IMG/VR virus record: IMGVR_UViG_3300034013_000713
Location: 1 to 26,432 of that record
From: a virus
Strand: one strand, 5' to 3'
DNA length: 26,432 bases
Shown here: piece after piece, positions 1 through 13,092 of the stretch
Layout of the letters: each line of letters begins with the position of its first letter
How positions within the stretch are numbered: position 1 is the stretch's first letter
Made by a program: the position numbers and the translations under genes
Notes under the pieces: model-generated
Told to the model about the DNA's origin: nothing
Databases searched by the model: none
The model's input: the letters and a program-made list of their open reading frames with translations, nothing else

Positions 1-234
1 AAATGTTCGCACAACCATTTCGCTATCAACTCCGCCTGACAACATTACATCAAATGGTTCATTATACGAGTCTCGCATAATACGGGCATTATTAAATAAT
101 GCATCTCTATAAGAAGGGAGATTTTTATCTATTTTTTTATTAAAATGAATTTTAAAAATAGAATTTGAATCAGTTTTTTTGCCATATTCTATAGCATCAA
201 AACTGTAGCTCATCCATTGATTATGTCTTTCCAT
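1..234 (-). CDS. PP-loop ATPase, asparagine-synthetase-like (partial, N-terminus)
   Basis: Minus-strand reading frame that starts at ATG 234-232 and runs open off the left edge, giving 78 residues. The visible protein contains SGGVDSE at residues 66-72, the PP-loop (SGGxDS) that binds ATP in asparagine synthetases, NAD synthetases and tRNA thiolases, which activate a carboxylate or nucleobase by adenylation. No glutamine-amidotransferase domain precedes the loop, so it is not a full AsnB; the family member and substrate cannot be named. It lies 49 nt downstream of the radical-SAM gene on the same strand, with no promoter or terminator visible between, so it is probably the third gene of the unit that begins at 2379. 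Confidence 0.75.
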   Translation of the reverse strand, partial: MERHNQWMSYSFDAIEYGKKTDSNSIFKIHFNKKIDKNLPSYRDALFNNARIMRDSYNEPFDVMLSGGVDSEMVVRTF

Positions 235-283
235 TTGTTAGTTCTAATTTTGTAAAAATGTTAATTTAACTCTACCTAGATAA

Positions 284-1816
284 TTATTCATTATTTTTCA
301 TTACATTAAGTATTAATGATCGATAATTATCTTTTTTTGTTTTTAGCAGTTGTTTGACGTTATACTTTGTATATATTTCATTCCGACTCAGTGCCACTAG
401 ATCATCTGCTGGAATTCCGAGAGACCTATGCCAATTGTAACCAAATCCACCGCACTTGAATCTACCATCGAAATATTTTCTTACATTTATTTTTTTTGCA
501 GCTTTAGCTACTTGATCAAAAGTCATTCCGATATAATCGTTGGTCCATCTAATTTCAGTAATAGAAGATGTTTCGATGTTTTCATAAATCTTATATCCAT
601 ATTTTTCATATTCTATATCAAATTCAGAAAAATCTTTAAATTTTGTTTGATCAAATTTTGGAGGAAATATAATCAAAGGTTCTACACTAAAGTCATCTAA
701 TTTATTCTTTTCTGAAAATAAGAATTCTTCTAGGATATTAATCTCGTCGTGTCTGTCTTTTGGCAACCCTAATATAAATCCAGAACGAGTTAGTATCTCT
801 TTAAATTCATTTTTTTTAATTTCTTCAATAAACTGAAATTGTTCAATGGGATTTAAACCTTTGCCAATAGCCTTACCTGAATTATGATTTATTGTTTCTA
901 TACCAAAGACTGCTGATTTTAAACCTGACTCTTGTAAGTATTTCACTGTGTCGGGAAATTTTATCATTAAATCAAGTCTCAAATATGTAGTAAAGTTTAA
1001 TTTAAATGGTAGCCTACTATACACTTCGTCATACAATCTTTTAACTTTTTCTTCACTATCATTGTATGTGTCATCGGAAAAACTGTATTCTGTTACTCCA
1101 TGCAACTCATAATTCTTTATAAACTCTTCATACAATACATTAGAACGTTTAACCCATTCGCCTTTCTTTTTACCATTAAGTGGAAATGAACAAAATTTAC
1201 ATTTAAAAATACAACCTCTACTAACTTCAATAGGAAGGGTATCTGACGATTCGACAATATCGTTCTTAGTAAAGATATTTTGGCTTGTTGTAAACTGTTG
1301 AAATTCTGAACCTTCAATCAGTGATTCTAAAAAACTTACTGGTATTTTTTTAGATTTTTTTGCACAATAATCTGTAAACTCAATAATTTCAGTATCATTA
1401 TTTTTTGTAAAAACTTTAAAACCGTATTTCTCGATCATAAATCTTTTCGAGCCACCGGCAATAAATTTTACGTTTGGATTAATATCCTTAACGGTTTTAA
1501 TAAAATTTAAAATTTCTTTATCAATATTTGGGATAGTTGTAGATTTTACATTAAATGAATCTATCGTACGAAAATAGGGATATCCAAATACATGACGCAA
1601 AAAGGTTGTACTAATTCCCACCCATAATGTATTATTACCTATAAACATCTTTATTGTATCGATGAGTTCTTCACGGTTGTCTTCATACGCTGTCATATCA
1701 ATACACTGAACAGTATAGCCTGCATTTCTTAACTCGCTAGCAATTCGAAATGTTCCCGCATATTTAGACATAGGTAATAAATGATTACCATATAGTAACA
1801 AACAATCTACTGTCAT
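284..1816 (-). CDS. Radical SAM protein with B12-binding-like N-terminal region
   Basis: Protein of 510 residues. Residues 201-209 contain Cys202-x3-Cys206-x2-Cys209, the cluster-binding motif of radical SAM enzymes, preceded by the common PIEVSRGC context. The first ~150 residues look like the alpha/beta cobalamin-binding-type domain often fused in front (LLLYGN near the N-terminus, then WVGIST near residue 65), but I do not see the DxHxxG motif that binds B12, so cofactor use is open. The length and the GIET motif near residue 305 fit the B12-binding radical SAM superfamily, which includes methyltransferases and other C-H activating enzymes. Its ATG overlaps the stop of the upstream oxygenase (ATGA at 1813-1816), implying translational coupling. 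The substrate is unknown. Confidence 0.85.
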   Translation of the reverse strand: MTVDCLLLYGNHLLPMSKYAGTFRIASELRNAGYTVQCIDMTAYEDNREELIDTIKMFIGNNTLWVGISTTFLRHVFGYPYFRTIDSFNVKSTTIPNIDKEILNFIKTVKDINPNVKFIAGGSKRFMIEKYGFKVFTKNNDTEIIEFTDYCAKKSKKIPVSFLESLIEGSEFQQFTTSQNIFTKNDIVESSDTLPIEVSRGCIFKCKFCSFPLNGKKKGEWVKRSNVLYEEFIKNYELHGVTEYSFSDDTYNDSEEKVKRLYDEVYSRLPFKLNFTTYLRLDLMIKFPDTVKYLQESGLKSAVFGIETINHNSGKAIGKGLNPIEQFQFIEEIKKNEFKEILTRSGFILGLPKDRHDEINILEEFLFSEKNKLDDFSVEPLIIFPPKFDQTKFKDFSEFDIEYEKYGYKIYENIETSSITEIRWTNDYIGMTFDQVAKAAKKINVRKYFDGRFKCGGFGYNWHRSLGIPADDLVALSRNEIYTKYNVKQLLKTKKDNYRSLILNVMKNNE

Positions 1817-2379
1817 TTTTTTTCAATCACTGTATTTTGATCAATTACTGATTTAAAATTATCTATATTTTCAGAAGAAATATTCAATGTTAAAAAATAT
1901 CGAATTTGACCTTCTTCAATTCCTCTAACATCGTGTAGTTGATTAACTTTTAATAAACACCATCTATTAATTTCTATAGGTGGTGTTTCTGCTGCCACAA
2001 CATTATCTTCGTACCACCTAACGGTAGTATTACTTCCACCAGTGGTAAAATAATAATTTAATGCCCAGTTTCTGCCTTTGTCGATATGTTTAGGGTGTGT
2101 ACCCCATGTCTCTTCTTGAGGTTTTAACTTTTGGTATGTAGTTACATTTAATAAATTTAATTTTAGAGTTGAAGGAATACTTCCATATAACGGAAATACA
2201 ATATTTCTAATAATCCATGTATTACATTCTTCGGGCAGATACGTAGCTCGATTCATTGGCCCTCGATAACTATTAACATTTTCTAGTCTAGGATCTACAC
2301 CAATGTATTTTACATTTTCCAAACATTGAGCAAAAAATTCTTTAGGTAATCTTGGAAGAGATAAGTATGAGAAGTACAT
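1813..2379 (-). CDS. 2-oxoglutarate/Fe(II) oxygenase-like protein
   Basis: Protein of 188 residues with the double-stranded beta-helix iron triad: His98-x-Asp100 (HID), distal His149 (LHD) and Arg160, which would bind the 2-oxoglutarate carboxylate. Such enzymes hydroxylate proteins, nucleic acids or small molecules using O2 and 2-oxoglutarate. It is first in a probable operon with the radical-SAM and PP-loop genes. A TATAAATA late-promoter octamer lies 6 nt before its ATG, and no Shine-Dalgarno sequence is visible. It is more divergent than the oxygenase paralogues at 8-12 kb, lacking their N-I-P-L segment after HxD. The family assignment is fairly secure; the target is unknown. Confidence 0.7.
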   Translation of the reverse strand: MYFSYLSLPRLPKEFFAQCLENVKYIGVDPRLENVNSYRGPMNRATYLPEECNTWIIRNIVFPLYGSIPSTLKLNLLNVTTYQKLKPQEETWGTHPKHIDKGRNWALNYYFTTGGSNTTVRWYEDNVVAAETPPIEINRWCLLKVNQLHDVRGIEEGQIRYFLTLNISSENIDNFKSVIDQNTVIEKK

Positions 2380-2385
2380 AAAGAA

Positions 2386-2393
2386 TATTTATA
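2386..2393 (-). promoter_or_regulatory. T4-late-type promoter octamer
   Basis: The minus strand reads TATAAATA, an 8/8 match to the T4 late-promoter consensus, 6 nt upstream of the ATG at 2379. If the start site falls where it does in T4, transcription begins at about the start codon. The facing TctC gene starts only 18 nt away. Confidence 0.6.
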
Positions 2394-2397
2394 TATC

Positions 2398-3306
2398 ATG
2401 CTAATCAACAAATTTTTTCTTTTATTAATTTTATTTTTTTCAAAAGTTGCAGTAGCTCAATCATTAGAGTTTACAGTTATGCACGCTCCCGGTGGTGTGA
2501 GCGATATCACAACACGGTATATCGCTAAAAACTTAGATAAAAAATATGTAGTAGTCAATCGGCCAGGAGCATCTGGCAAAATTGCTATGGGTCATTTAAT
2601 GAATGAAAAAACTATGCTACTGGCTACTGTAGTTCAAGTTTTTGTTACCAACCCTATCAATTTTAACGACTTAAATTACGATCACAAAATTGATTTAGAA
2701 GTGCTGGCCACTATAGGAATTATGCCCTCTGCATTACTCTGTAATGCTAAAACAGGAATAACATCCTATCAAGACTTTATCAATACTAAAAAATCATTGT
2801 CCTTTGCTGTTGGAGGTTATGGGTCTTCCGAACATATCGCCACTGAAGTATTACTATCAAAAACTAAAAACAATCATATCGTCGTTCCCTATGCTCAAGG
2901 GGGAAATAAGTCTGTATTAGATTTAGTTGGCGGGCATGTTGATTGTATGTTTGGCAACTACCCGACAGTTAAAGCCTACACCAATCACGAAAATTTAAAA
3001 TTATTATTAACTAGTCATGCTGTTGGATTAAAAACATCAACATGGGAAAGTTTTTATAAAGAAGTGTTCCCATTCCAAAGCTATCTTTCAGTAATTGTTC
3101 CTAAGACTATGGATGAATATACTAAAGGTAAAATTACAGCTGATCTAAAAACAATATTTCAATCAGCAGAATATAAGCAAGGGCTTACTGATATAGGATT
3201 ATTTTTCAAATCAGATACTGATAAATCTAAGATTAAAGAATCGTTGAATTATAATGACAATATTAGAAAATTTATTTTAGAAAATAAGATCAAAACAAAA
3301 GATTAA
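2398..3306 (+). CDS. TctC/Bug-family periplasmic solute-binding protein
   Basis: Protein of 302 residues with a classical signal peptide: a short positive N-terminus, a hydrophobic run at residues 6-18 and an AVA cleavage site near residue 20, so the mature protein should be periplasmic. The family pattern is clear: APGGVSDITTRYIA near residues 30-43, then the NRPGASG motif at about residues 54-60 typical of receptors of tripartite tricarboxylate transporters. These proteins bind carboxylates such as citrate or dicarboxylates. No TctA or TctB membrane gene is present here. It is the only rightward gene in the first 8 kb, and its stop shares TTAA (3303-3306) with the convergent neighbour. It shows the AT-rich composition of its neighbours, so it is not a very recent insertion from a GC-rich host. 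Confidence 0.85.
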   Translation: MLINKFFLLLILFFSKVAVAQSLEFTVMHAPGGVSDITTRYIAKNLDKKYVVVNRPGASGKIAMGHLMNEKTMLLATVVQVFVTNPINFNDLNYDHKIDLEVLATIGIMPSALLCNAKTGITSYQDFINTKKSLSFAVGGYGSSEHIATEVLLSKTKNNHIVVPYAQGGNKSVLDLVGGHVDCMFGNYPTVKAYTNHENLKLLLTSHAVGLKTSTWESFYKEVFPFQSYLSVIVPKTMDEYTKGKITADLKTIFQSAEYKQGLTDIGLFFKSDTDKSKIKESLNYNDNIRKFILENKIKTKD

Positions 3307-4469
3307 GACCGTGTTTCAACTCTACCAATTAAATATTGTTTAACAAAGGATTGTAATCCGTCTGGTTGATTTGTTTCTAAATCGTATCTCAAAAATGGAG
3401 TTAAAGAATTCCTAACATAATCAATGCCCTCATGCCATATGACATTGGCTTTTGTTTTAACGCTTCCTTCGATGAACCAATTGTCAAATTCGCTATACCA
3501 ATCTTTTGTTGCTTTATGCACTTGAAACCAAGAATTATTCCAAGTTGTCGGATACATAACTTTTCTTAATAATCTCTCATGCCAAAATCTTACAGAAGCA
3601 TAACTAGAAGTTTTAGTGTTCCAGTATTGCTGATAATTAGGATTTAATTCTAGCCATCTTTTTATCACATGTCCTTGTTTGATTAATAATGGCACACACT
3701 CAGGGCTCCAGTAAAAATATTCAATAACACTGTTGTCGTAATCTTTTATGTGATCGACAATTGTAACCATGTTAGCTGATCGATCATTGAATCTCATCCA
3801 AAATTGACCTTCATGGATAATGCTTTTAGGTTTTTCTACTCCAAGTATAATACCTATCTTCTTCTCTTTATCAAACAGTCTACGAACTTCATCAAAGTAT
3901 ACATAGTTAAATCGAGTAATTCCTATAGGATTCAATGCTTCTCTTTTTTGCAATACCCAGCTTGCATCACCTACTGACAATAATGAATCGTTAACTTGAT
4001 CAGTTAGATCACAGATTGTAATCTTTGTTTTTGGAATAAACTGCTCTACTTCTTTTAGTCTTGGAATAGTTTGTAGGTAATGCTCGGCCCCTGAATTCAA
4101 ACTAGAAACATTTCTAGGATCTAAACTAGTATAAGGTTTCCAACCTTTTTCCATTGTGTTGATTAGCAGCTCATCTAAGTGTATACCTTGTCTAATAAAA
4201 CTCATTAAAATTTGATGGCTATCAGCGCCGCCGCTGTAACTTAAAATAAGATAATCGTATTTTGCTCGCAGATCTCTCACTCGTTTATCATATAATTGGT
4301 CTAATGTTTCTTCTGGTTCTTTAGTCCAGTCGTGTATGCTAAATTCTAAATCATTAAAGACCCAGTCAACTGGCTTGTTGACTTTAAGAGAATGAAAACA
4401 TGCTTGAATTTTTGATTCAAATTCTAAACCGTCACATGTATAATAGCCCAGTAACTTATTAATTAACAT
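3303..4469 (-). CDS. PP-loop ATPase, asparagine-synthetase-like
   Basis: Protein of 388 residues. SGGADS at residues 79-84, after a hydrophobic strand (YLILSY), is the PP-loop of N-type ATP pyrophosphatases. The protein lacks an N-terminal glutaminase domain. About 70 residues precede the loop and a long C-terminal region rich in Trp and Tyr follows it, so it is not a normal AsnB, QueC or TilS. It could adenylate a carboxyl group or base for amide or thio transfer; the substrate is unknown. Its ATG lies inside the 3' end of the FabK-like gene (11-nt overlap), making it the last gene of the unit that begins at the desaturase at 6107. A second PP-loop gene lies at the left edge of the window. 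Confidence 0.75.
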   Translation of the reverse strand: MLINKLLGYYTCDGLEFESKIQACFHSLKVNKPVDWVFNDLEFSIHDWTKEPEETLDQLYDKRVRDLRAKYDYLILSYSGGADSHQILMSFIRQGIHLDELLINTMEKGWKPYTSLDPRNVSSLNSGAEHYLQTIPRLKEVEQFIPKTKITICDLTDQVNDSLLSVGDASWVLQKREALNPIGITRFNYVYFDEVRRLFDKEKKIGIILGVEKPKSIIHEGQFWMRFNDRSANMVTIVDHIKDYDNSVIEYFYWSPECVPLLIKQGHVIKRWLELNPNYQQYWNTKTSSYASVRFWHERLLRKVMYPTTWNNSWFQVHKATKDWYSEFDNWFIEGSVKTKANVIWHEGIDYVRNSLTPFLRYDLETNQPDGLQSFVKQYLIGRVETRS

Positions 4470-5331
4470 CTTTAACTAACCACTCTATTATATCTTTTAC
4501 TGGCATTATTTTGTTTATATAGTCTATTCCGTTGCCTACATAGATGCATCCGGAATTAGTTCCCTTGATACCCTCATATAGAGATTTGGAATTGTTATCG
4601 TCGTCATTTTCTAGTCTAGAAAATAACAGCCCTCTGCAATTTAACGGACCTATTAATTTGATATCTTTTGATGTGGACTCTATAATTTTTTGTTTAGTAT
4701 CGCTTGACACACAACTTTCTTCAGATGCTGCAAGTAGTGTGCCAATACCCACAGCTAATGCTTCTCTGTCCATAAAATATTTTACCTGTTCAGGACTGCC
4801 AATACCACCGCTTGGAATGATTCTTGATCCTACTTGTTCTTTCATAGCATCATATCGATCTTCTAATGATACTAGACTACCGAATGATCTCCCAGCAGCC
4901 TGAGGACCTTTCAATACTATCGAATCAAAATAGGACATAGGTAGCCGATTAGAAGTTTTAAACATTACAGCTATACCGTGTACCTTCATATTGTCGATCT
5001 GTTTAGATAATTCAGGCCACAAATGATGATCTGATGGTCTAATAAAAAGTTCAACTAATTTTATATTATTTTCTAATAGAACATCTATAACAGGAGTCCA
5101 TATAAAATGTTCCCAGTGCATACTTAAAATTATTTCTGTAGAACTGGTTGCATCTGTAAACCTTTTTAAACTGGCATCTACATGCTTTAGATTTACTTTT
5201 CCACCTTCATAATAATTAAAGATTGACAAACTAGGTACAGCACCCGCTTGAGTTACAGCAATAGCTAAGTCAACATTGGATACTCCATTCATGGGCATAG
5301 CCACAATTGGATGTTTGCTATTAAATTTCAT
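4459..5331 (-). CDS. Nitronate monooxygenase / FabK-like FMN-dependent TIM-barrel enzyme
   Basis: Protein of 290 residues. The N-terminus HPIVAMPMNGVSN and the barrel start resemble the 2-nitropropane dioxygenase/enoyl-ACP reductase II family. LKGPQAAGRSFGS at residues 140-152 occupies the place of the family's K-G-x-E-A-G-G-H segment, and IIPSGGIGSPEQV at residues 171-183 is the typical phosphate-binding turn for FMN. The catalytic His of that G-G-H segment is Arg148 here (GRS), so activity may differ from nitronate oxidation. FabK members reduce enoyl-ACP in fatty-acid synthesis, which would fit the adjoining desaturases, but this is inference. Its ATG shares one base with the desaturase stop (TAATG). 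Confidence 0.75.
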   Translation of the reverse strand: MKFNSKHPIVAMPMNGVSNVDLAIAVTQAGAVPSLSIFNYYEGGKVNLKHVDASLKRFTDATSSTEIILSMHWEHFIWTPVIDVLLENNIKLVELFIRPSDHHLWPELSKQIDNMKVHGIAVMFKTSNRLPMSYFDSIVLKGPQAAGRSFGSLVSLEDRYDAMKEQVGSRIIPSGGIGSPEQVKYFMDREALAVGIGTLLAASEESCVSSDTKQKIIESTSKDIKLIGPLNCRGLLFSRLENDDDNNSKSLYEGIKGTNSGCIYVGNGIDYINKIMPVKDIIEWLVKDVN

Positions 5332-6107
5332 TAAATTTTAATCAATCTAATTACAAGTGCCGAAATATCAATCTCCCACCACTTGTTTCCAAAACTAAAA
5401 TTCCTAGGATATCTATGATGATTGTTGTGCCACGCTTCCCCCCAACTAGGAATAGCCCATAGCCAATTATTTGTACTTTGATCATTTAGATTGTGTGTTC
5501 TATATCCACCCCACCAACTTGGTTTGTGTCCCACATAATTAACAACATTACTCATAAGGGCGGTCATTGCAGCAGGCGCCCAATGAAAAAATACCATCAA
5601 CCAAAATCCTCCTATTAAAAATAGTACAAGGCTATAGGTTGCAATGATTGCAAAATAATATCTATGTAGGAATTGCTGGAATCTGTCAGTGACTAATGCC
5701 CTCATTCTCCATTTTGTATCTTTATCAACTTCATTTATATAATCCATCATAAAGATCTTTACCCCTTTGTATAACGGACTATGCGGATCAGTAGGCTTGT
5801 CACTCTTTAAGTGATGATTGATATGAATGGCCACCCATGCAAGTGGACTGCCGGTCCCTGCAAAGCATCCTAATAATGAAAATATCTTTACAATGATCGG
5901 ATGTGTTCTATAACTATTGTGAGAAAGATTTCTGTGATAAGTTACGACGATACCTAAACAACCATATAAAAAGTATCCCACTAGTACCATCATAAAAGAA
6001 TTAAAATTTAATCCGTACAACCAGACAGCACCGAAAGTACCTATTAAATTTAATATCAAGAATAGTTGAGCACCCCTAGTGCTGCTAGATAAAAATGCTG
6101 TGTTCAT
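5331..6107 (-). CDS. Fatty-acid desaturase (membrane di-iron), paralogue 1
   Basis: Protein of 258 residues with all three histidine boxes of the acyl-CoA/acyl-lipid desaturases: HRNLSH at 58-63, HINHH at 95-99 and HNNHH at 227-231, together binding the two irons. Hydrophobic segments around residues 14-32, 38-56 and 152-176 fit an integral membrane enzyme that introduces a double bond, probably at the delta-9 position judging from family resemblance. The length is typical of short bacterial and viral members. A late-type octamer lies 20 nt upstream and AGGAAA gives a Shine-Dalgarno site. It is first in a unit with the FabK-like and PP-loop genes. The paralogue at 6711 has its boxes at nearly identical positions. 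Confidence 0.93.
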   Translation of the reverse strand: MNTAFLSSSTRGAQLFLILNLIGTFGAVWLYGLNFNSFMMVLVGYFLYGCLGIVVTYHRNLSHNSYRTHPIIVKIFSLLGCFAGTGSPLAWVAIHINHHLKSDKPTDPHSPLYKGVKIFMMDYINEVDKDTKWRMRALVTDRFQQFLHRYYFAIIATYSLVLFLIGGFWLMVFFHWAPAAMTALMSNVVNYVGHKPSWWGGYRTHNLNDQSTNNWLWAIPSWGEAWHNNHHRYPRNFSFGNKWWEIDISALVIRLIKI

Positions 6108-6127
6108 TTAGTTTCCTATGAGCATTA

Positions 6128-6135
6128 TATTTATA
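6128..6135 (-). promoter_or_regulatory. T4-late-type promoter octamer
   Basis: The minus strand reads TATAAATA (8/8), 20 nt upstream of the desaturase ATG at 6107. The leader leaves room for the AGGAAA ribosome-binding site, unlike most octamers in this region. Confidence 0.6.
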
Positions 6136-6153
6136 GGATAAAATAACTGATTT

Positions 6154-6714
6154 TTATTTTCTAAATTCTTGTTTTAACGCTCGCTTTTTAACAATCATTG
6201 GGACAGGTTTAACTTCTTGCCCCATTAGTCTCCAGTGCAATTCATAAAATGGTTTTGTATTAGGTGGAACAACGTCTAACAATATATGTTCGTATCTATG
6301 AGAGTGTGATCGTTTCCATTGTCTTTCATATACATTTATTACACGTTCGGCAGTGCAATAATAATATTCATACCAACCTCGTGATTCAGCATAATCGAAT
6401 GCAAATTTAATTAATTCGCCTATTCCTGAATGGTTAAAGCTAAAATAACTTTTAAAATTCTTAGTATATAATCCCGAAATAACCCAAAATTTTCCTCTCA
6501 TCGTAGTTTCGAACATTCTGATACATACAAAACTAACAAGTTCATTATTTTCAAAGTATCCAATCACACGGCAAAATTCATCATCCTGGAAATATTTTTC
6601 AAAGGCACCTAAAAATCCTTCGAGTGTTAATGGAACAGTGCCACCGGTTCTATTTTTTAATGGTGCAATTTTCATGCAATCCGGCAAGTCATCCATTGTT
6701 AAAAATCGTATCAT
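6154..6714 (-). CDS. GNAT-like acetyltransferase (weak match)
   Basis: Protein of 186 residues beginning MIRFLTMDDLPD, a common N-terminus of Gcn5-related N-acetyltransferases. A strand pair with acidic and hydrophobic alternation follows at residues 45-62 (RVIGYFENNELVSFVCIRM), then a helix FAFDYAESRGW at about 105-115, as in GNAT motif A. The canonical R/Q-x-x-G-x-G/A acetyl-CoA loop is not obvious; the HSGIGELI segment near residues 95-102 could serve. Its start overlaps the stop of the second desaturase (ATGA), so it is coupled to a lipid-type enzyme and may act on an acyl or amino group. The assignment is tentative. Confidence 0.5.
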   Translation of the reverse strand: MIRFLTMDDLPDCMKIAPLKNRTGGTVPLTLEGFLGAFEKYFQDDEFCRVIGYFENNELVSFVCIRMFETTMRGKFWVISGLYTKNFKSYFSFNHSGIGELIKFAFDYAESRGWYEYYYCTAERVINVYERQWKRSHSHRYEHILLDVVPPNTKPFYELHWRLMGQEVKPVPMIVKKRALKQEFRK

Positions 6715-7499
6715 TTTTTCAGTAACTTAATGAGCATTGCACCGGGATCGATCTCCCACCACTTTCCACTTATTTCAGTTCCGTAGTGATAATGTCGAGC
6801 ATGTGCATGGTGGTTGTTATGCCACGCTTCACCTAAATATAAAGGCCACAATAACAAACTATTTTGACTATTGCCGCTAGATGGATTAGTGTAAGTCCTA
6901 TACGCACCTATACCTGACATATGTCCTAAATAGTTTTGTAAATTAATAGAAAATTGTACAAGAACTACAGGAACTAGCCATGTATAATAAAATAATGTAA
7001 AATTAATAAATGCAAAAGGTACTAACAAACATGCTAAGATCAACCAATAGTATTGATTAATAAATAGGTGCTCCTTGGTCATCATAGATCTAATTTTAAA
7101 TATCTGAATATCATCAGCTTTATTTTTGTTGTCAAGTAATCCAAAAAAGTTAAATTTTCTACCAACAGGAGTATGCGGATCATCTTCGGTATCTACGTGT
7201 TCGTGATGTGCTCGATGGATGTATGCCCAAGCTATTGGACTTCCTCGCAACGAAAGCAATGAAATTATAATAAAAACTTTTCTGACAATATTATTTTTAA
7301 ATTCAAAACTTTTATGGCTGAAGTATCTATGCATCATTATGCTTATACCGATAGATAGTAAAACATGATATGCAATAGCAGACACAAGTAATAAGGGTAA
7401 ATTAAATGTTACAAAGAATGCACCTATAATAATTGCTAACCTTGCTACAATATGAGAATACCTAACAGTAGTTGAACTAGCTTGAAATAAATTAGTCAT
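6711..7499 (-). CDS. Fatty-acid desaturase (membrane di-iron), paralogue 2
   Basis: I place the start at ATG 7499-7497 (MTNLF), which overlaps the upstream stop by 8 nt; a longer frame to 7532 would run deep into the upstream gene. The product is 262 residues, with histidine boxes HRYFSH at 57-62, HRAHH at 95-99 and HNNHH at 227-231, nearly the same positions as paralogue 1. Hydrophobic segments at about 18-55 and 152-185 fit membrane helices. The box segments match paralogue 1 closely while the rest differs strongly, so the duplication is old or the two arrived separately. It is the second gene of a unit led by the 2OG-type protein at 8118. Confidence 0.93.
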   Translation of the reverse strand: MTNLFQASSTTVRYSHIVARLAIIIGAFFVTFNLPLLLVSAIAYHVLLSIGISIMMHRYFSHKSFEFKNNIVRKVFIIISLLSLRGSPIAWAYIHRAHHEHVDTEDDPHTPVGRKFNFFGLLDNKNKADDIQIFKIRSMMTKEHLFINQYYWLILACLLVPFAFINFTLFYYTWLVPVVLVQFSINLQNYLGHMSGIGAYRTYTNPSSGNSQNSLLLWPLYLGEAWHNNHHAHARHYHYGTEISGKWWEIDPGAMLIKLLKK

Positions 7500-8118
7500 A
7501 TGATATTGTATATTCTTTGTACATTTCTGCACTTTTTTGTAGGAACTGACTGTTCTTAAATCCTACTCCAAACATTTGAATTAATAATTTAGGGTGATCC
7601 GGGTTATACTTCGACCCATGCCATGTGTACTTATCGTTATATGCAAACCAATTAGTGGACTCTGGCAATGTTAACAACACAGCAGTTTTTGTATCATTCG
7701 GTTTAGTAAAAAACCATTGAGGGTTCGAATCAGTATAATGCAACATTGCTCTAACGTTCCATCGATCTATATTATCATCAGTGTGTGGCGGAATATTTCC
7801 TAGGCTTTCTACAACCCTAACACCAGTGACAAGAGAGAATAGAGGAATTTTTGTAATCATTTGATACATTAAGGGAAGTTCTTCTCGAATATCATAGTAA
7901 GGTGCAGTCCATGCAGATCGAAATAAATTATTTTTATAGATATCTAAACCTTTCCAGACATCTGTATCTCCAATTTTTGAATAAGATCCCTTATGGTTTT
8001 GTTGCGTTTTAACTATAGGTTTTCCATAATTGTTCCAAATATTCCAAAATACAGACCAATCGTCAGGGACTACAGTAGGAAGGTTAAGTGGTGTGGCTAC
8101 TATCATAATATGTTTCAT
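7492..8118 (-). CDS. 2OG/Fe(II) oxygenase-like (aspartyl-hydroxylase-type) protein
   Basis: Protein of 208 residues with His112-x-Asp114 (HTD), distal His167 (WHGS) and Lys177 where most members have Arg, a plausible 2-oxoglutarate ligand. The spacing and the TWHGS ending resemble aspartyl/asparaginyl beta-hydroxylase-like phage proteins. It heads a unit with desaturase 2 and the GNAT-like protein. The start is uncertain: the late octamer TATAAATA ends only 1 nt before this ATG, and a second in-frame ATG lies at codon 5 (8106), which would leave a short leader. No Shine-Dalgarno site is visible for either. Confidence 0.65.
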   Translation of the reverse strand: MKHIMIVATPLNLPTVVPDDWSVFWNIWNNYGKPIVKTQQNHKGSYSKIGDTDVWKGLDIYKNNLFRSAWTAPYYDIREELPLMYQMITKIPLFSLVTGVRVVESLGNIPPHTDDNIDRWNVRAMLHYTDSNPQWFFTKPNDTKTAVLLTLPESTNWFAYNDKYTWHGSKYNPDHPKLLIQMFGVGFKNSQFLQKSAEMYKEYTISYD

Positions 8119-8119
8119 A

Positions 8120-8127
8120 TATTTATA
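8120..8127 (-). promoter_or_regulatory. T4-late-type promoter octamer abutting a start codon
   Basis: The minus strand reads TATAAATA (8/8), one base from the ATG at 8118. Transcription from it would start inside the first codons, which favours the in-frame ATG at 8106 or a non-promoter role for this copy. Confidence 0.5.
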
Positions 8128-8183
8128 TTACAAAATTGCAGAGAGTTAAATAAAAGATATTCCAAAATTTTACGATAAACATC

Positions 8184-8732
8184 GTGTACTGTAAAAAAAT
8201 TCATTTAACATGCGAACATCTTATAAAAGAATTTGCAATTTTAGATATAGAGAAAAAGATAGATACTTCAATTCCTGTAGATAGACAAATACAAATAAGA
8301 CACGAGCTCAACAATCAATTAAAGCATATAATTGATGCAGACCTAGCTAGGTATAATATACCTCCTGTTCGCTATTGTCTAAGTTATATTAGACCAAAGA
8401 ATAGTTTTCAAGGTATTCATATAGACGGTAATGAAGAAGGTATTATAAAATCTGCAATAAACATTCCGTTGAAAGGTTGTAAAAACAGTTACCAAATTTG
8501 GTATAAAGGAAAATACAGCACATCTCTTGTAATGTTATCCAACAACGTTTATCATGAAATTATGTGGCAAGAACCATATACAGAAGATTTTAAATTAGAA
8601 ATTGACAGCCCTCATCTATTAAGAGTAGATTGTCCGCATTCAGCACAATCAAATCAACTCGAAGATCGGTGGGTATTTACTATGAGATTTCACGGTAATC
8701 CAAATTTTGAAGATTTAGTTAGCAATGTCTGA
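8184..8732 (+). CDS. 2OG/Fe(II) oxygenase paralogue, GTG start
   Basis: Protein of 182 residues. His79-x-Asp81 (HID), distal His152 (PHS) and Arg162 form the oxygenase triad plus the co-substrate Arg. INIPLKGC at 92-99, just after HxD, is shared with the paralogues at 10012, 10579 and 11756. There is no ATG at the conserved N-terminus. The GTG at 8184 places the start where the paralogues begin (YCKKIHL against YYKKIEI), and the frame is closed by a stop at 8151. A late-type sequence, GTTAAATA (6/8), lies at 8145-8152. The gene overlaps the following GNAT-like gene by 8 nt. The substrate is unknown. Confidence 0.7.
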   Translation: MYCKKIHLTCEHLIKEFAILDIEKKIDTSIPVDRQIQIRHELNNQLKHIIDADLARYNIPPVRYCLSYIRPKNSFQGIHIDGNEEGIIKSAINIPLKGCKNSYQIWYKGKYSTSLVMLSNNVYHEIMWQEPYTEDFKLEIDSPHLLRVDCPHSAQSNQLEDRWVFTMRFHGNPNFEDLVSNV

Positions 8733-9333
8733 TCTAACACTTATTCGGTATGACGAGTTAGAGGATAAAAGTTTATTTTTTAAATTTTGTCAAGAGGCAT
8801 CAGAAGAAATTACTCAGCTAGCACACAGCAATATGTGGGTAGAAGATTGGCATACTAAATCTAACACACTAATACATCAAATATACAACAGGCATCGATA
8901 TTTTGAAACCAGTGGAGCGTTTCACTTAGCGATAAAAAATGAAACTATTGTAGCCTGTTCGGGAGTTTATAGAAGTGAATTCTCCAATGAAGTTGCCATA
9001 GGCGGATGTAGAACATGGGTTACAAAAGATTACCGACATTTAGGATTACCTAGAGAACTTTTTTTACCAATGCACAAACAATGGGCAATAGACAATAATT
9101 GTAAAGCTATTGCTATCACATTTAATGACTATAATAAAAATTTGATAGAAACATTTAAAAGAAAAAGATTAGGTGAAACTCGATCACCTAGACAATTACA
9201 TCATCTATTTTATAATAATTTTAATGTAATTGATTTTCCTCTTAATATTCAGTACACTAAACAATGGATAGCGTACGAACAACTTAACTTAAATTTTATG
9301 TTTGATTGGAATACTATTAGATGGAAAGACTGA
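8725..9333 (+). CDS. GNAT-like N-acetyltransferase
   Basis: Protein of 202 residues. The central part shows the GNAT core: a strand FHLAIKNETIVACSGVY at about residues 71-87, then GGCRTWVTKDYRHLGLPREL at about 93-112, where V-x-x-x-x-R-x-x-G resembles the acetyl-CoA-binding motif A, followed by a helix and ITFNDYNKNLIETFKRK, as in motif B. It would transfer an acetyl or acyl group to an amine. It is coupled to the preceding oxygenase by an 8-nt overlap and converges on the next oxygenase with only 12 nt between. The acceptor is unknown. Confidence 0.65.
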   Translation: MSDLTLIRYDELEDKSLFFKFCQEASEEITQLAHSNMWVEDWHTKSNTLIHQIYNRHRYFETSGAFHLAIKNETIVACSGVYRSEFSNEVAIGGCRTWVTKDYRHLGLPRELFLPMHKQWAIDNNCKAIAITFNDYNKNLIETFKRKRLGETRSPRQLHHLFYNNFNVIDFPLNIQYTKQWIAYEQLNLNFMFDWNTIRWKD

Positions 9334-9345
9334 ATTTAAAATCTA

Positions 9346-9966
9346 CTACCAACCTTGTGCTTTAACTTCGCTAACGACCTCTTTAAATGCTAGCTTGTAA
9401 CCTTTTAGAATTTCAGCGTATCGACTAGGACTTACATTTTTATAAATTCCGTCAAAATACTCAGGAACAGCAAATCTTTTATCTGGTGTAATGCTTAATA
9501 GATATCTATTTTCATTACTGAAATTAGTTACACAATGTTCCTCTTGTGTATTAAATACAAAATACGTACCAGGTGTGTAGGGAATATCCATAATTTCTGT
9601 ATTCATTTTTCGCACGTACGGTCTATTTGGTCGCCACATAACTTTAGTTGTTTCAAAACCATTTAGTGCTAAATTTATTGCGGTTTGTCTATTTCCTTGA
9701 TTATCGATATGCCATCGATAATGCCCCTTAGGGGGCATACATGTGAAGTTTAACCTCCATCCCTGATCTAGAAAAAATTTAATTACAGGATCTGATTCGA
9801 AATTACAAGCAGTCCTATTTGGTACATCTAAATAAAATGTATGCCAATCTAATCCCTCCCAGTCTTCTACACTTTGAACATATTCTAATAGTTGAGGTAA
9901 GATTGTACAGGGCTGATTAAGTGCATAATAATAATCATCAGGGTTTAATGTTATAGAAGGTAGCAT
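9346..9966 (-). CDS. 2OG/Fe(II) oxygenase paralogue
   Basis: I choose ATG 9966-9964 (MLPSITLN) because an AATAAATA octamer stands 20 nt upstream; an extended frame to 10065 would cross the neighbouring gene's start. The product is 206 residues with His86-x-Asp88 (HID), distal His144 (EEH) and Arg154 (ENRYLLSI). INLALNGF follows HxD in the position of the N-I-P-L-x-x-C segment of its relatives. The middle of the protein, with WHIDNQGNRQ and FNTQEEH, resembles aspartyl-hydroxylase-like and prolyl-hydroxylase-like phage proteins. It is divergent from the paralogue at 10012, with 45 nt between the starts. Confidence 0.75.
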   Translation of the reverse strand: MLPSITLNPDDYYYALNQPCTILPQLLEYVQSVEDWEGLDWHTFYLDVPNRTACNFESDPVIKFFLDQGWRLNFTCMPPKGHYRWHIDNQGNRQTAINLALNGFETTKVMWRPNRPYVRKMNTEIMDIPYTPGTYFVFNTQEEHCVTNFSNENRYLLSITPDKRFAVPEYFDGIYKNVSPSRYAEILKGYKLAFKEVVSEVKAQGW

Positions 9967-9986
9967 AATTTTTAAAGTTTGTAAAG

Positions 9987-9994
9987 TATTTATT
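9987..9994 (-). promoter_or_regulatory. T4-late-type promoter octamer
   Basis: The minus strand reads AATAAATA (7/8 to TATAAATA), 20 nt upstream of the ATG at 9966. It abuts the opposite-strand octamer at 9995-10002, making a back-to-back divergent pair. Confidence 0.5.
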
Positions 9995-10002
9995 ACTAAA
10001 TA
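9995..10002 (+). promoter_or_regulatory. Late-type promoter octamer
   Basis: The plus strand reads ACTAAATA (6/8), followed by TTT, 9 nt before the ATG at 10012. The same ACTAAATA occurs before the genes at 14147 and 24434, which suggests that ACTAAATA is an accepted variant in this phage. Confidence 0.45.
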
Positions 10003-10011
10003 TTTGGAAGT

Positions 10012-10590
10012 ATGCAAGAACTTTATAGATACATCCATATCCCCAACTTTGAAGAGATTCAACACGAATTAATTAAATCTATTAATTATGATTATGCATC
10101 TAAAGGCCTACATGCATGTACGTTCAGTGAAGAGCATATGACTGAACATTGTCCAAAATTAATGAGGTGGCTAAAGTCGAGGAGTAAAAGTCAAATTCGA
10201 TTACTTAGGTTTTATTTTACACCGGGGCATGCTGAGCTAGCTCCTCATGTTGATAGTTCATTCATTACAGTACCGTTTGGATTAAATATTCCTGTATTAA
10301 ATTGTCATAATACAAAAATGTTATGGTATCATTGTCCAAAAGAAAATCTAGTCATGGGTGCCGTACAAAGCAGTTACCTGCATGGTCTAACTCCTATAGA
10401 CAATTCTAAATTAGAAATTATCGAAGACCTTGAGATAACAAAGCCTTGTTTTGTTAAAGGTGATGTCATGCATGGTGTTAAAAATTTTAATGATGATATA
10501 AGGATAATGTTTACCGTGCGATGGGGACTACATCCTATTAAATTTAGAAATATTGAAGATGTAGTGGATACTACAGATTTATTCGTCTGA
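10012..10590 (+). CDS. 2OG/Fe(II) oxygenase paralogue
   Basis: Protein of 192 residues. His79-x-Asp81 (HVD), distal His154 (MHG) and Arg164 are in place; LNIPVLNC at 91-98 is the segment shared with the sister genes. The N-terminus (LYRYIHIPNFEEIQHEL) aligns by eye with MKYYKKIEIENLEVIQKKV of the next gene and MRCFYKLKINNLESIQAHA of the gene at 12307, strong evidence that these three came from duplication. It overlaps the convergent gene at 10579 by 12 nt. The target is unknown; hydroxylation of a protein or nucleotide is possible. Confidence 0.78.
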   Translation: MQELYRYIHIPNFEEIQHELIKSINYDYASKGLHACTFSEEHMTEHCPKLMRWLKSRSKSQIRLLRFYFTPGHAELAPHVDSSFITVPFGLNIPVLNCHNTKMLWYHCPKENLVMGAVQSSYLHGLTPIDNSKLEIIEDLEITKPCFVKGDVMHGVKNFNDDIRIMFTVRWGLHPIKFRNIEDVVDTTDLFV

Positions 10591-11142
10591 CGAAAAATAT
10601 TGATAGAATGGATCAGGATCGCAGCCAATTGACAATGCTATTCTAGGTCTCGAAGTTTCATTCATAAAAACCCTATGTGGTATATAAGTTTTAAGAATTA
10701 ACGGCTGTGTTAATTCGTATGCGTCTACTTCAATACATTCAAGTGGATTTATAATTGCATCTACCTTAAACGTTTTATTATTTGCCATGGTCCTAATTTC
10801 TTCTACTACCTTTTCACCTGTATAAAATTTAGTAAATGTTCCGTTGCAATTTAAAATAGGAATGTTAATTCTAGCTTTCCAGGGCGTAATATCAGTATGT
10901 ATAGCAGAATGTGTATTATCATACATTATATGAATTGACGCAAAAATGCAGGATAAATTCAATTTGCCGAAAGACTCAGAAAGTTCTGGGCATGCCGCCA
11001 ACAAACTCGGAACATCGAGATGGTTCCAAGATGACTCAACTTTTCTAAAATATATAGTGGGGTGTTTAAATTTAATAAATTGTAAAACTTTTTTCTGTAT
11101 TACCTCTAAGTTTTCAATTTCTATTTTTTTATAATATTTCAT
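10579..11142 (-). CDS. 2OG/Fe(II) oxygenase paralogue
   Basis: The start is taken at ATG 11142-11140, not at the TTG one codon upstream, because GATAAATA lies exactly 5 nt before this ATG. The product is 187 residues. His82-x-Asp84 (HTD), distal His156 (PHR) and Arg167 form the predicted iron and co-substrate site; INIPILNC at 92-99 is the family segment. The distal strand ends RIALSIG, like VSICIRI and IMFTVRW in the sisters. It is convergent with the gene at 10012 and divergent from that at 11209. Confidence 0.78.
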   Translation of the reverse strand: MKYYKKIEIENLEVIQKKVLQFIKFKHPTIYFRKVESSWNHLDVPSLLAACPELSESFGKLNLSCIFASIHIMYDNTHSAIHTDITPWKARINIPILNCNGTFTKFYTGEKVVEEIRTMANNKTFKVDAIINPLECIEVDAYELTQPLILKTYIPHRVFMNETSRPRIALSIGCDPDPFYQYFSSDE

Positions 11143-11147
11143 CAAAA

Positions 11148-11155
11148 TATTTATC
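11148..11155 (-). promoter_or_regulatory. Late-type promoter octamer, 5 nt before ATG
   Basis: The minus strand reads GATAAATA (7/8), followed by TTTTG and then ATG at 11142. No Shine-Dalgarno site fits between, so a leaderless mRNA is predicted. Confidence 0.5.
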
Positions 11156-11195
11156 TGCTCTTATTACTCCTAGAAAGCTCGATTAATAATTAGGT

Positions 11196-11203
11196 GGTAA
11201 ATA
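11196..11203 (+). promoter_or_regulatory. Late-type promoter octamer, 5 nt before ATG
   Basis: The plus strand reads GGTAAATA (6/8), followed by TTTGA and ATG at 11209. AGGTGG at 11192-11197 overlaps it and could be a Shine-Dalgarno site if transcription starts further upstream, so this copy is ambiguous. Confidence 0.35.
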
Positions 11204-11208
11204 TTTGA

Positions 11209-11748
11209 ATGAGCGATTATTTTAAAAAACTGTCATTTCCTGTACCGTTTCTTAGCGAATCTTTTGTATGCGAAAAACAATGGAAATTAGGTACTGCTCA
11301 TATAACAGAAATATTAAGTCCAGATATGCTAGAACTGTTAAAGAAAATTGATGATTTTCGACTAAACGGCCTAATAATTTATTATAGTGGGGAAAGCACG
11401 TCTTCCCCGATTCATATAGACAACTATAACGTTTACGATCAAACAAATTTAAATTTTTATATAAATGCAAATGATAGTCTAGTTAACTGGTACAGATCAA
11501 TTAATAAGTATCCAGGACTACCGAAACACAATGGTGTAGCTTGGAAAAGAGACTACGAAATTGATAAAATGCAGTTAATCGAATCCGTAAACTTACAAGG
11601 GGCGTGTTTATTTCAAAGCGGTGTTCCTCATAACGTATCAAATATAACGTCACCTCGATGGTGTGTTAGTATAAAAGTATCATTACACAATTCGAAATAT
11701 TTCAAATGGCAGGATGCATTAAGTAGATTTGAAAAATTTATTATGTAG
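11209..11748 (+). CDS. 2OG/Fe(II) oxygenase-like protein
   Basis: Protein of 179 residues with His69-x-Asp71 (HID), distal His141 (PHN) and Arg150 followed by the strand WCVSIKV. The segment after HxD (LNFYINAND) departs from the N-I-P-L-x-x-C pattern and the N-terminus differs, so it is a more distant relative of the neighbours. SPIHID is nearly identical to SPIHVD of the gene at 12307. It is convergent with that gene, leaving 7 nt between the stops. The substrate is unknown. Confidence 0.72.
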   Translation: MSDYFKKLSFPVPFLSESFVCEKQWKLGTAHITEILSPDMLELLKKIDDFRLNGLIIYYSGESTSSPIHIDNYNVYDQTNLNFYINANDSLVNWYRSINKYPGLPKHNGVAWKRDYEIDKMQLIESVNLQGACLFQSGVPHNVSNITSPRWCVSIKVSLHNSKYFKWQDALSRFEKFIM

Positions 11749-11755
11749 AAATTCG

Positions 11756-12307
11756 TTATTTTAAATCCCATTCTGACAGAGCGGCTTCTATGTCAAATGT
11801 AGATTTTATTCTTATACATATAGAAACTCTTGTTGTAAAAGTAAGATTAGATATGCTGTGAGGAACTGACACATTCATTAAAAATGGATCAGATAATCGA
11901 AGAGAATCTAGTAGTGTGCAAGAGTTTGGATCAAAGATACTGTATTCTATATCACTGTTTGGACTTTTTTTCTTAACAGGAACCTCATTAGATTGATAAA
12001 AATTAGTTCGAGTATATCTGCAATTTTTTAAAGGTATATTTAAACTCCAATTATAGTCATTATCCCCGTCGACATGAATAGGGCTTATGCCTCCTGAATT
12101 GAGAACAAAAAGAGCAACATTATGTATATAATTTGTCAACCCGTATTGATTTAACGCACATAAGAGATCTTGATCATCTAAAAAATTATATTCTGGATAA
12201 AATAATCTAGTTGGCATCAAATTAAGATCTTCTTCAGATATTTTAGATAATGCGTGTGCCTGTATAGATTCTAGATTATTAATTTTTAATTTATAGAAAC
12301 ATCTCAT
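11756..12307 (-). CDS. 2OG/Fe(II) oxygenase paralogue
   Basis: Protein of 183 residues. His78-x-Asp80 (HVD), distal His150 (PHS) and Arg160 are present, with LNIPLKNC at 89-96 matching INIPLKGC of the 8184 gene. The N-terminus aligns with the 10012 and 10579 products. AATAAATA ends 5 nt before the ATG and no Shine-Dalgarno site is seen. It is the last of the alternating-strand run of oxygenases and the last AT-rich gene before the more GC-balanced early region. Confidence 0.78.
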   Translation of the reverse strand: MRCFYKLKINNLESIQAHALSKISEEDLNLMPTRLFYPEYNFLDDQDLLCALNQYGLTNYIHNVALFVLNSGGISPIHVDGDNDYNWSLNIPLKNCRYTRTNFYQSNEVPVKKKSPNSDIEYSIFDPNSCTLLDSLRLSDPFLMNVSVPHSISNLTFTTRVSICIRIKSTFDIEAALSEWDLK

Positions 12308-12312
12308 AATTA

Positions 12313-12320
12313 TATTTATT
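12313..12320 (-). promoter_or_regulatory. Late-type promoter octamer, 5 nt before ATG
   Basis: The minus strand reads AATAAATA (7/8), then TAATT and ATG at 12307. Confidence 0.5.
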
Positions 12321-12343
12321 TCTAAAATTAGAGGGTATAAAAT

Positions 12344-12556
12344 TCAAATTTTACCTTTTTGTTTCCGAGCAAGATGTAATCGTCTTTCTAATTCTTCTGC
12401 AACTGTCCAGTCAGTAGTTGCCAGTCTAGCTAACCAGCCTACCATCAAACCCTTTTGAGCTGCCAGTGTTTCGCCCGTTGTGGGATAAACATAATGATCC
12501 AGCAACTCAAATATATCGTCAGCTTTTTTTTCTAGGCGAGTTTTTTGGGTGGACAT
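12344..12556 (-). CDS. Hypothetical small charged protein
   Basis: I take the start at ATG 12556-12554 (MSTQKTRLEKK), giving 70 residues; the longer frame to 12667 would run through the divergent sigma70 promoter and into the next gene. The protein is rich in Lys, Arg and Glu at both ends, with a helical middle (GLMVGWLARLATTDWTVAEELERRL). I do not recognise a family. AGTAAATA (6/8) lies exactly 5 nt before the ATG. Its composition resembles the genes to its right rather than the AT-rich genes to its left, so the compositional border falls at about 12.33 kb. Confidence 0.6.
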   Translation of the reverse strand: MSTQKTRLEKKADDIFELLDHYVYPTTGETLAAQKGLMVGWLARLATTDWTVAEELERRLHLARKQKGKI

Positions 12557-12561
12557 AACAT

Positions 12562-12569
12562 TATTTACT
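12562..12569 (-). promoter_or_regulatory. Late-type octamer, 5 nt before ATG (weak)
   Basis: The minus strand reads AGTAAATA (6/8), then ATGTT and ATG at 12556. It is back to back with the sigma70 promoter that begins at 12573 on the other strand. Confidence 0.35.
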
Positions 12570-12572
12570 GGC

Positions 12573-12601
12573 TTGACAAAATGGTAAAGTGATGCTATAA
12601 T
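12573..12601 (+). promoter_or_regulatory. Consensus sigma70 promoter
   Basis: TTGACA at 12573-12578, a 17-bp spacer, and TATAAT at 12596-12601, preceded by TGC (extended -10). Both hexamers are perfect. AGGAGA at 12614-12619 then serves the ATG at 12625. This should drive the phosphatase and kinase genes early after infection. Spacer bases ATGGTAAA and ATGC recur at the same positions in the promoter at 14374. Confidence 0.85.
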
Positions 12602-12624
12602 TATATAATGCGCAGGAGAATAAA

Positions 12625-13092
12625 ATGCCATGGATTGAAAACGTAGCGGCCGCTGATATACCCACAAGGTTTCATCATGAGGCAGGTGAGAACAGTATGC
12701 TGATCAGCATTGTTGATCCGGCCAGCTGGCGCCCTGTGCCTGCTCACAAGTTTAAAGAGCAACACAACTTTGAGTTTTTGGACGTAGAGGCCAAGGACGA
12801 AGTGTTGGAAGAAGCAATGAAATGTAGTCAAGAGCAGGCTAACGAGCTTGTTCGACTGTTGCAACACGCAAAGGACAACCGTATGAATGTAGTTGTTCAC
12901 TGCTATGCGGGTATTTGCCGCAGTGGTGCAGTTTGCGAAGTTGGTGTTATGATGGGCTTTGAAGACACAGGTAGATTCCGTAGCCCCAACCTATTGGTCA
13001 AGCATCGCATGATGAAGGCTTTGGGTTGGACATATGATGAAGATGAAAAGCCAAACATAGACGATTGGCGAACTTTTAGGAGTGTAGATTAA
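12625..13092 (+). CDS. Protein tyrosine phosphatase-like protein
   Basis: Protein of 155 residues. VVVHCYAGICRSGAV at about 89-103 contains His92-Cys93-x5-Arg99-Ser100, the complete HCx5R(S/T) phosphate-binding loop of cysteine-based protein phosphatases. An upstream Asp that could act as general acid lies among residues 53-59. The size fits the small dual-specificity-like phosphatases annotated in phages and bacteria. Candidate substrates are phosphoproteins, phosphoinositol-like molecules or RNA 5' ends; the sequence does not decide. It directly abuts the kinase gene (stop TAA then ATG), so the two are co-transcribed from the promoter at 12573. Confidence 0.8.
   Translation: MPWIENVAAADIPTRFHHEAGENSMLISIVDPASWRPVPAHKFKEQHNFEFLDVEAKDEVLEEAMKCSQEQANELVRLLQHAKDNRMNVVVHCYAGICRSGAVCEVGVMMGFEDTGRFRSPNLLVKHRMMKALGWTYDEDEKPNIDDWRTFRSVD

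Follow-up and report, generated by a model that had tools for sequence, protein, structure and literature searches.

A predicted family of small 2OG/Fe(II)-type oxygenases at one end of a relocatable enzyme island in T4-like phages

The 26,432-base virus record IMGVR_UViG_3300034013_000713 (the window, meaning this whole stretch) carries between positions 7492 and 12307 a dense array of short genes whose products show the HxD...H...R/K signature of 2-oxoglutarate (2OG)/Fe(II) oxygenases. The array raises the question of whether these genes form one family, how they came to lie together and what they may be for. Aquatic T4-like phages commonly carry small 2OG oxygenases, for which, to our knowledge, no role is established. 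Sequence comparison places the array at one end of a larger relocatable enzyme island in a clade of T4-like phages, and we propose, with a probability of roughly 40%, that its products are late-made tailoring hydroxylases tied to an acyl- or lipid-type pathway.

The window is 100% identical over its full length to positions 76054-49623 of IMGVR_UViG_3300042302_000394 (G001, 207,813 bases; window position p corresponds to G001 position 76055 - p), and two more short contigs match it at 99.98% or more over about 10 kb. This parent contig (207.8 kb) is T4-like. The window encodes RIIA, whose best matches in named phages, many of them T4-like, have 28-43% identity, and megablast of the window's first 25,000 bases found no match among 50,697 phage records. 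Clade contigs were gathered via NMNAT (80 kept out of 159) and, in four cases, via RIIA; many of the 50 clade contigs searched below are fragments.

The oxygenase family and its predicted fold

All nine open reading frames (ORFs) of the original prediction, seven in the array and two at 1813 and 22580, are present, each with an HxD, a later His and then an Arg or Lys. Two of the residue ranges given for them had to be widened. The HxD lies at residues 69-119 and not 69-112, the value of 119 belonging to 9346-10065 read from its GTG; read from an internal ATG at residue 34, this protein has 206 residues and its HxD at residue 86, inside the proposed range. Its true start may be this ATG at 9966, which would remove the overlap with the gene at 10012. 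The spacing from the HxD His to the distal His is 51-75 residues, slightly wider than the proposed 58-75 (1813: 51; 7492: 55). The N-I-P-(L/V/I)-x-x-C segment was seen as described in 8184, 10012, 10579 and 11756. The pattern H.D-(45 to 85)-H-(8 to 14)-[RK] occurs in 9 of 13 island ORFs of 150-262 residues (1000 shuffles: mean 1.36, maximum 5). Over the rest of G001 it occurs in 9 of 61 ORFs against 5.98 after shuffling, which is not clearly above chance, so that the pattern alone is weak evidence there and was rejected as sole criterion outside the island. The oxygenase genes of the island within the window, named below by their first position, are as follows.

1813-2379, minus strand: 2OG/Fe(II)-type oxygenase, distant relative of the array family (joined by iterated profile; overlaps the radical SAM gene at 284 by 4 bases)
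7492-8118, minus strand: 2OG/Fe(II)-type oxygenase, separate family (H112, D114, H167 and K177 invariant in four relatives; overlaps the desaturase gene 6711-7532)
8184-8732, plus strand: small 2OG/Fe(II)-type oxygenase, array family (blastp and profile kinship, triad)
9346-10065, minus strand: 2OG/Fe(II)-type oxygenase, related branch (PF13640 E 4.8e-4, below cut-off; profile)
10012-10590, plus strand: small 2OG/Fe(II)-type oxygenase, array family (blastp and profile kinship, triad)
10579-11145, minus strand: small 2OG/Fe(II)-type oxygenase, array family (within a set of nine, blastp against 11756 gives E 1.4e-11; triad; TTG listed as start, followed directly by ATG)
11209-11748, plus strand: small 2OG/Fe(II)-type oxygenase, array family (blastp and profile kinship, triad)
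11756-12307, minus strand: small 2OG/Fe(II)-type oxygenase, array family (AlphaFold pLDDT 91.8, PDB matches, triad invariant in alignment)

Five of these proteins (8184, 10012, 10579, 11209 and 11756) are linked by blastp, with E-values computed for a set of nine sequences. A profile of the five finds relatives in the contigs G005 and G006, and iterated search brings in 9346 and 1813, while 7492 stays outside with its own relatives. As judged from sequence, 8184, 9346, 10012, 10579, 11209, 11756 and 1813 are one superfamily. The seven array proteins of the original prediction combine two families, 7492 representing a separate small one. Iterated search from 9346 drew in 45 proteins and may have drifted, and for this reason the tree discussed below was restricted to 26 chosen rows. 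An eight-row profile found family members in 8 of 50 clade records and in 0 of 35 other records, three contigs having been searched twice; a 23-row profile found them in 11 of the 50 clade contigs at E 1e-5. H78, D80, H150 and R160 are invariant in all 23 aligned rows, in which mean column identity is 20%.

Existing family models barely register these proteins. With E allowed up to 1, the five blastp-linked members had only weak, scattered matches in Pfam, PHROG and NCBIfam, among them a carbohydrate-cluster 2OG oxygenase model for 11756 and 10579 (E 0.02-0.03); 1813 likewise lacks a meaningful match in these collections. The family shares superfamily fold and triad with 2OG-FeII_Oxy_3 (PF13640) and Asp_Arg_Hydrox (PF05118), but none of the 23 members reaches the curated cut-off of either, and 22 have no match to either at E 0.1. 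The remaining one, 9346, scores 21.5 bits against a cut-off of 27 for PF13640 and 14.5 against 22.6 for PF05118. Nothing credible came from searching PDB sequences with 9346 or with two profiles, and an exact-word scan for cellular relatives found none. The 23-row profile had no match in 369 genomes of the class to which a Pseudomonas record belongs or in 3 others, a result of little weight without a positive genome, with some candidates unscored and the host unidentified; a profile of PP-loop ATPase A, an island protein introduced below, likewise had no match in the same kind of 369-genome sample.

The AlphaFold model of 11756 (mean pLDDT 91.8, pTM 0.87) is a double-stranded beta-helix in which H150 and R160 open two successive strands. 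Foldseek matched it to 366 PDB chains at E 0.001 or better. With VIA-align, Cpz10 of caprazamycin biosynthesis (PDB 7v4m) ranked first (Z 13.4, rmsd 2.9, 136 aligned residues, 12% identity), 1.6 in Z ahead of the next entry; other 2OG oxygenases and some cupins follow at Z 11.8 or lower, and AspH, P4H and ALKBH5 matched at Z of about 11 in tied rows. Cpz10 and 11756 are both of the small 2OG hydroxylase type; they differ in that sequence identity is 12%, that no PDB sequence search links them and that their setting is different. In BFVD, the best matches were uncharacterised proteins of uncultured Caudovirales phages. The model of 7492 had a pLDDT of 37 and gave no usable fold. Of the beta-helix and triad expected for each product, the fold is predicted for 11756 and the triad is seen in the alignment. 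Taken together, the predicted fold, the matches to solved oxygenases and the triad and Arg in 23 of 23 rows bear out the 2OG/Fe(II)-type identity of the array proteins: by sequence and model the family belongs to the 2OG/Fe(II) dioxygenase superfamily, with the fold coming from one member and extending to the others via homology. Binding of iron and 2OG and a hydroxylation activity are predicted for them.

That T4-like phages carry several such genes, as stated in the original prediction, agrees with cyanophages, in which several small 2OG genes per T4-like genome are described, in 14 of 16 genomes (PMC3037559). Our window resembles these phages in this respect and differs in that the genes form a dense array on a relocatable island, with cassettes between tRNA genes in relatives. 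In addition, tblastn of 10012, 11756 and 9346 (against 50,697 phage records) and of two homologues from related viruses found no match in named phages. In cyanobacteria, phage 2OG enzymes have been tied to the NtcA response and to levels of 2OG (PMC3037559), and the enzymes studied here could in principle act chiefly by consuming 2OG and so alter host metabolism or signalling. This is the explanation we give the least credence, as a single enzyme would suffice for it while the diversity of the family suggests different substrates.

The island and its genes

Window positions 1-12386 are part of an 18.8-kb island (G001 63669-82510). The junction can be placed to within some 30 bases of 12386, close to the 3' end of ORF 12344-12667, and the island extends about 6.4 kb past the window's left end. 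Two contigs that are 98-99% identical to G001 across RIIA (L029 and L039) are without G001 63669-82510, and their junction flanks align at 87-93%. The island has 32.4% G+C against 41.6% in the rest of G001, and an array of 39 tRNA genes starts about 0.6 kb beyond its far side.

The contig that holds L039 (G013) carries a related 18.3-kb island at another site, bounded by the equivalents of G001 51724 and 51653 (window 24331 and 24402), about 12 kb from the G001 island site and with flanks 95.8% and 99.4% identical to G001. At this site G001 is uninterrupted except for about 70 diverged bases where a dCMP-deaminase-like gene ends. L206 2644-20977 (G013) and G001 63669-82510 are thus related 18-kb islands at different sites in near-identical viruses, each site being intact in the other. 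Gene order is partly the same in the two, and identities to the G001 island genes are 71% for the desaturase 5331-6107, 65% for PP-loop A, 53% for a Rieske protein, 50% for the GNAT protein 8725, 49% for the radical SAM protein, 45% for PP-loop B, 40% for the second desaturase, 32% for a 7492-type oxygenase, 31% for g77599, 30% for TctC and 28% for PP-loop 3303. A third version lies in G006 at about 104.5-120 kb, and co-located tailoring-type enzymes are kept as a set in all three versions (G001, G013 and G006). Among the island proteins scanned (some small ORFs were left unscanned) none matched a recombinase model, and a search for terminal repeats in the last 400 bases gave only AT-rich shared words of 11-16 bases. 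The hyperplastic gp17-gp18 region described for cyanomyoviruses (PMC3037559) is similar in that cargo genes occupy a plastic site of a T4-like phage; the islands sit elsewhere, next to a tRNA array or behind a dCMP-deaminase-like gene, and bring other cargo. Besides the oxygenases, the island part of the window encodes the following.

1-234, minus strand: PP-loop ATPase A, start of a 306-residue protein (G001 75821-76741; weak PP-loop models, PF03054 E 2.9e-4)
284-1816, minus strand: radical SAM protein of B12-type architecture (PF04055 E 2e-11; TIGR04072 E 1e-15, below cut-off)
2398-3306, plus strand: TctC-type solute-binding protein (PF03401 E 2.4e-23)
3303-4469, minus strand: PP-loop-like protein, by eye from its sequence motif, without Pfam match (relatives in G013 and G006)
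4459-5331, minus strand: NMO/FabK-like enoyl reductase (PF03060 E 3.7e-14; FabK model E 4.4e-10, below cut-off)
5331-6107, minus strand: fatty acid desaturase, DesA-like (PF00487 E 3.6e-16; relative in the G013 island as above)
6154-6714, minus strand: acetyltransferase-like protein, by eye, without Pfam match (43% identical relative in G006)
6711-7532, minus strand: fatty acid desaturase (PF00487 E 1e-12)
8725-9333, plus strand: GNAT acetyltransferase (PF00583 E 1.8e-4; relative in the G013 island as above)

The best NCBIfam matches of 4459, 5331 and 284 are FabK, DesA and a lipid-biosynthesis B12-radical-SAM model, all below cut-off. The minus-strand genes 7492, 6711, 6154, 5331, 4459 and 3303 form a run with gaps of -41, -4, 46, -1 and -11 bases, and 7492 therefore goes with the desaturase operon as its first gene, whereas the genes at 8184-12307 are mostly single and alternate in strand. 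Across the 50 clade contigs, the oxygenase family and PP-loop A occur together in 7, the family only in 4, PP-loop A only in 2 and neither in 37 (P 1e-4; P 3.6e-4 after dropping G045, possibly the same virus as G046). These numbers bear on the view that the island is a general landing site, in which the array has no functional tie to its neighbours and the oxygenases have mixed roles. The alternating strands, the many other ORFs housed in tRNA arrays and the separation of array and pathway genes in G013 and G006 would fit such a landing site; the co-occurrence with PP-loop A and the translational coupling of oxygenases 7492 and 1813 to pathway-type genes argue otherwise, and we consider it rather unlikely.

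Origin of the array and expression of single genes

The original prediction took members of the array to have arisen by duplication, perhaps as an arms-race family. Five members are indeed homologous and all lie within 5 kb. In a tree of 26 proteins, however, the six array rows of G001 require six changes, the maximum possible and no fewer than with shuffled labels, and they form one clade in 0% of 200 bootstrap trees. Pairwise scores point the same way, with 11756 scoring 96 bits against a gene of G023 and 71 against one of G006 but only 50 against its neighbour 10579. The scatter of the members among relatives argues against recent local duplication, which we hold to be very improbable. With long branches, 9 of the 23 inner ones being open, the placement of any one protein is unsure, and the tree speaks against recent and not against ancient duplication in place. 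The suggestion that the diverged members have different targets is plausible, and that of an arms race is conceivable.

In four related contigs (G006, G020, G023 and G046) family ORFs sit between tRNA genes on either strand; in G024, G047 and G048 they are not in tRNA arrays. Considering ORFs of at least 120 residues, family members make up 12 of 38 inside tRNA arrays and 23 of 351 outside (P 2e-5), an enrichment seen in a biased sample, since the regions were partly chosen for holding family members. The other 26 of the 38 tRNA-array ORFs do not match the family profile, some showing an HxD all the same, which points to tRNA arrays as general insertion sites. In this clade, arrays of about 20-39 tRNA genes (L013 3070-12415, L158, L163, L054, L055 and L164) have many protein genes lodged inside, often AT-rich.

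The cassettes amid tRNA genes, together with AlkB and ALKBH5 among the structural matches at Z of about 11, could be taken to mean that the enzymes modify tRNA or DNA, in repair, tRNA modification or counter-defence. A tRNA-directed function is set back by the 26 ORFs outside the family that occupy the same arrays. Hydroxylases of proteins and small molecules score level with AlkB and ALKBH5, the late-type promoters described next are a poor fit for an early or middle role, and what PADLOC assigns to 9346 is only a generic 2OG model (the radical SAM protein has a weak one). We regard nucleic acid modification as improbable.

Several oxygenase genes are preceded very closely by a late-promoter-like motif. 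Taking the start of the longest ORF, 14 of 35 family ORFs (1000 shuffles: mean 0.48, maximum 4) and 26 of 354 other ORFs have the motif [N][A/T/G]TAAATA 9-17 bases ahead of it; with re-chosen starts, a looser count, the numbers are 19 of 35 and 37 of 354, in both cases over regions partly picked for family members. Within the window, five of the eight oxygenase genes (1813, 7492, 10579, 11209 and 11756) have such a close motif, 9-14 bases before the start.

12313-12320, minus strand: late-promoter-like AATAAATA, 13 bases before the ATG of 11756-12307
11196-11203, plus strand: late-promoter-like GGTAAATA, 13 bases before the ATG of 11209-11748
11148-11155, minus strand: late-promoter-like GATAAATA, 10 bases before the TTG (13 before the ATG) of 10579-11145
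9995-10002, plus strand: weaker look-alike ACTAAATA, 17 bases before the ATG of 10012-10590, excluded from tests
8120-8127, minus strand: TATAAATA, 9 bases before the ATG of 7492-8118
2386-2393, minus strand: TATAAATA, 14 bases before the ATG of 1813-2379

The motif is the same 8-base motif as in late promoters of T4 and of cyanophages, the latter described as NATAAATA (PMC2984593). Its position differs: the T4 motif has its peak at -36/-35 and goes with ribosome sites, whereas here a second class lies at -17 to -9 without them. Over about 49 kb each, T4 has 1 motif in this band (44 ORFs), and P-SSM2 (21 ORFs) and Astolliot (44 ORFs) have none. In G001 a close motif precedes 21 of 209 ORFs, and a Shine-Dalgarno-like word is found in 1 of these 21 compared with 72 of the 188 others (P 0.0013). 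Sigma-70-type promoter words were counted in 0 of 24 island ORFs and 13 of 185 other ORFs. Of 10 clade contigs, 3 encode a gp55 homologue. The second class, again without Shine-Dalgarno-like words, was also seen in contigs related to G001. The T4 late promoter motif lies about -13 to -6 from the first RNA base. With the motif so close to the start, this geometry predicts transcripts that begin at or near the AUG, and from motif spacing and the T4 analogy we infer that several oxygenase genes may be expressed from leaderless late mRNA.

The close late motif is not confined to oxygenases, since the G001 tail-fibre gene 171053-172744 also carries one. Collagen-like Gly-X-Y ORFs in two sequence styles lie at G001 6028-12648, 27434-30400, 161820-163799, 171053-172744 and 175984-178683. 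The array enzymes could accordingly be protein hydroxylases of late virion proteins such as collagen-like tail fibres, with the acyl-type neighbours as unrelated cargo. Apart from the shared promoter, this view can draw on the long Gly-X-Y repeats of several G001 ORFs, some matching tail-fibre families, on the resemblance of the 11756 fold to AspH, a viral collagen prolyl hydroxylase and prolyl hydroxylases (tied rows), and on P-SSM2, where 2OG genes directly precede the baseplate gene gp25. It has to contend with the presence of the family in just 11 of the 50 clade contigs, many of them fragments, and with its co-occurrence with PP-loop A. We judge a virion-protein role unlikely, and the best of the rival explanations.

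A possible role in tailoring a late-made compound

Late-type promoters, an island shared with acyl-type enzymes and the co-occurrence with PP-loop A together favour, if indirectly, tailoring of a late-made compound. The conserved island genes (B12-type radical SAM protein, desaturases, FabK-like reductase, acetyltransferase, PP-loop ATPases, Rieske oxygenase, 7492-type oxygenase and solute-binding proteins) would constitute a pathway that makes or remodels an acyl- or lipid-like compound. Single-gene 2OG/Fe(II) hydroxylases would be recruited from a diverse pool common to related viruses and would act on late-made substrates, either pathway intermediates or proteins, and a start-proximal late promoter would let a lone gene function on either strand, also amid tRNA genes. 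Homology, the predicted fold of 11756, the invariant triad, the two island sites, the shared genes, the promoter spacing and the tree scatter are taken from sequence; late timing, leaderless mRNA, enzymatic activity, the acyl or lipid substrate and the functional link between array and pathway are what we infer.

Several observations weigh against this role. No scaffold-building enzyme was identified in the G001 island, an acyl-CoA ligase and a FabG-like gene being found in the G013 island only, where they are extra together with a BKACE gene. Array and pathway genes are separable: G013 has pathway-type genes while the array-family profile has no match in its first 20 kb at E 1e-4, and in G006 the cassettes are about 12 kb or more away. 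The best structural match, Cpz10, has a non-lipid substrate, being described as acting on a small amino-acyl nucleoside (PMC9814697). By the pattern used, 8184, 9346 and 10012 (the last with the weaker look-alike only) are without a close promoter, a gp55 homologue was not found in G001, and the family shares its tRNA-array sites with the ORFs noted above that do not match its profile.

A broader form of the tailoring proposal, in which a clade-wide relocatable late biosynthetic cluster makes an acyl or lipid compound whose product is diversified by single-gene leaderless hydroxylase cassettes with start-proximal late promoters, is doubtful. The link of small 2OG oxygenases to a moving radical SAM, desaturase and PP-loop set offers a concrete, testable pathway, and leaderless late cassettes, if true, would explain how a single gene added between tRNA genes is expressed on either strand. 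One acyl-CoA desaturase is described in a Nitrospirota virus (PMC7678222). In the titles and abstract openings of the open-licence papers searched, we found no account of an oxygenase array of this kind, a comparable phage cluster or leaderless late genes of T4 type.

Further proteins of interest lie on and around the island. TctC- and DctP-type solute-binding proteins are phage-borne in the islands (window 2398-3306; L206 11654-12565 and 18540-19520). The ninth frame of the original prediction, window 22580-23128, lies outside the island and encodes a DUF6445/phrog_1644 protein with HAD...H and no kinship to the array family. One more HxD protein is encoded on the island beyond the window's left end (G001 81692-82474), and past the tRNA array G001 93321-93806 encodes an additional AspH-like protein of 161 residues.

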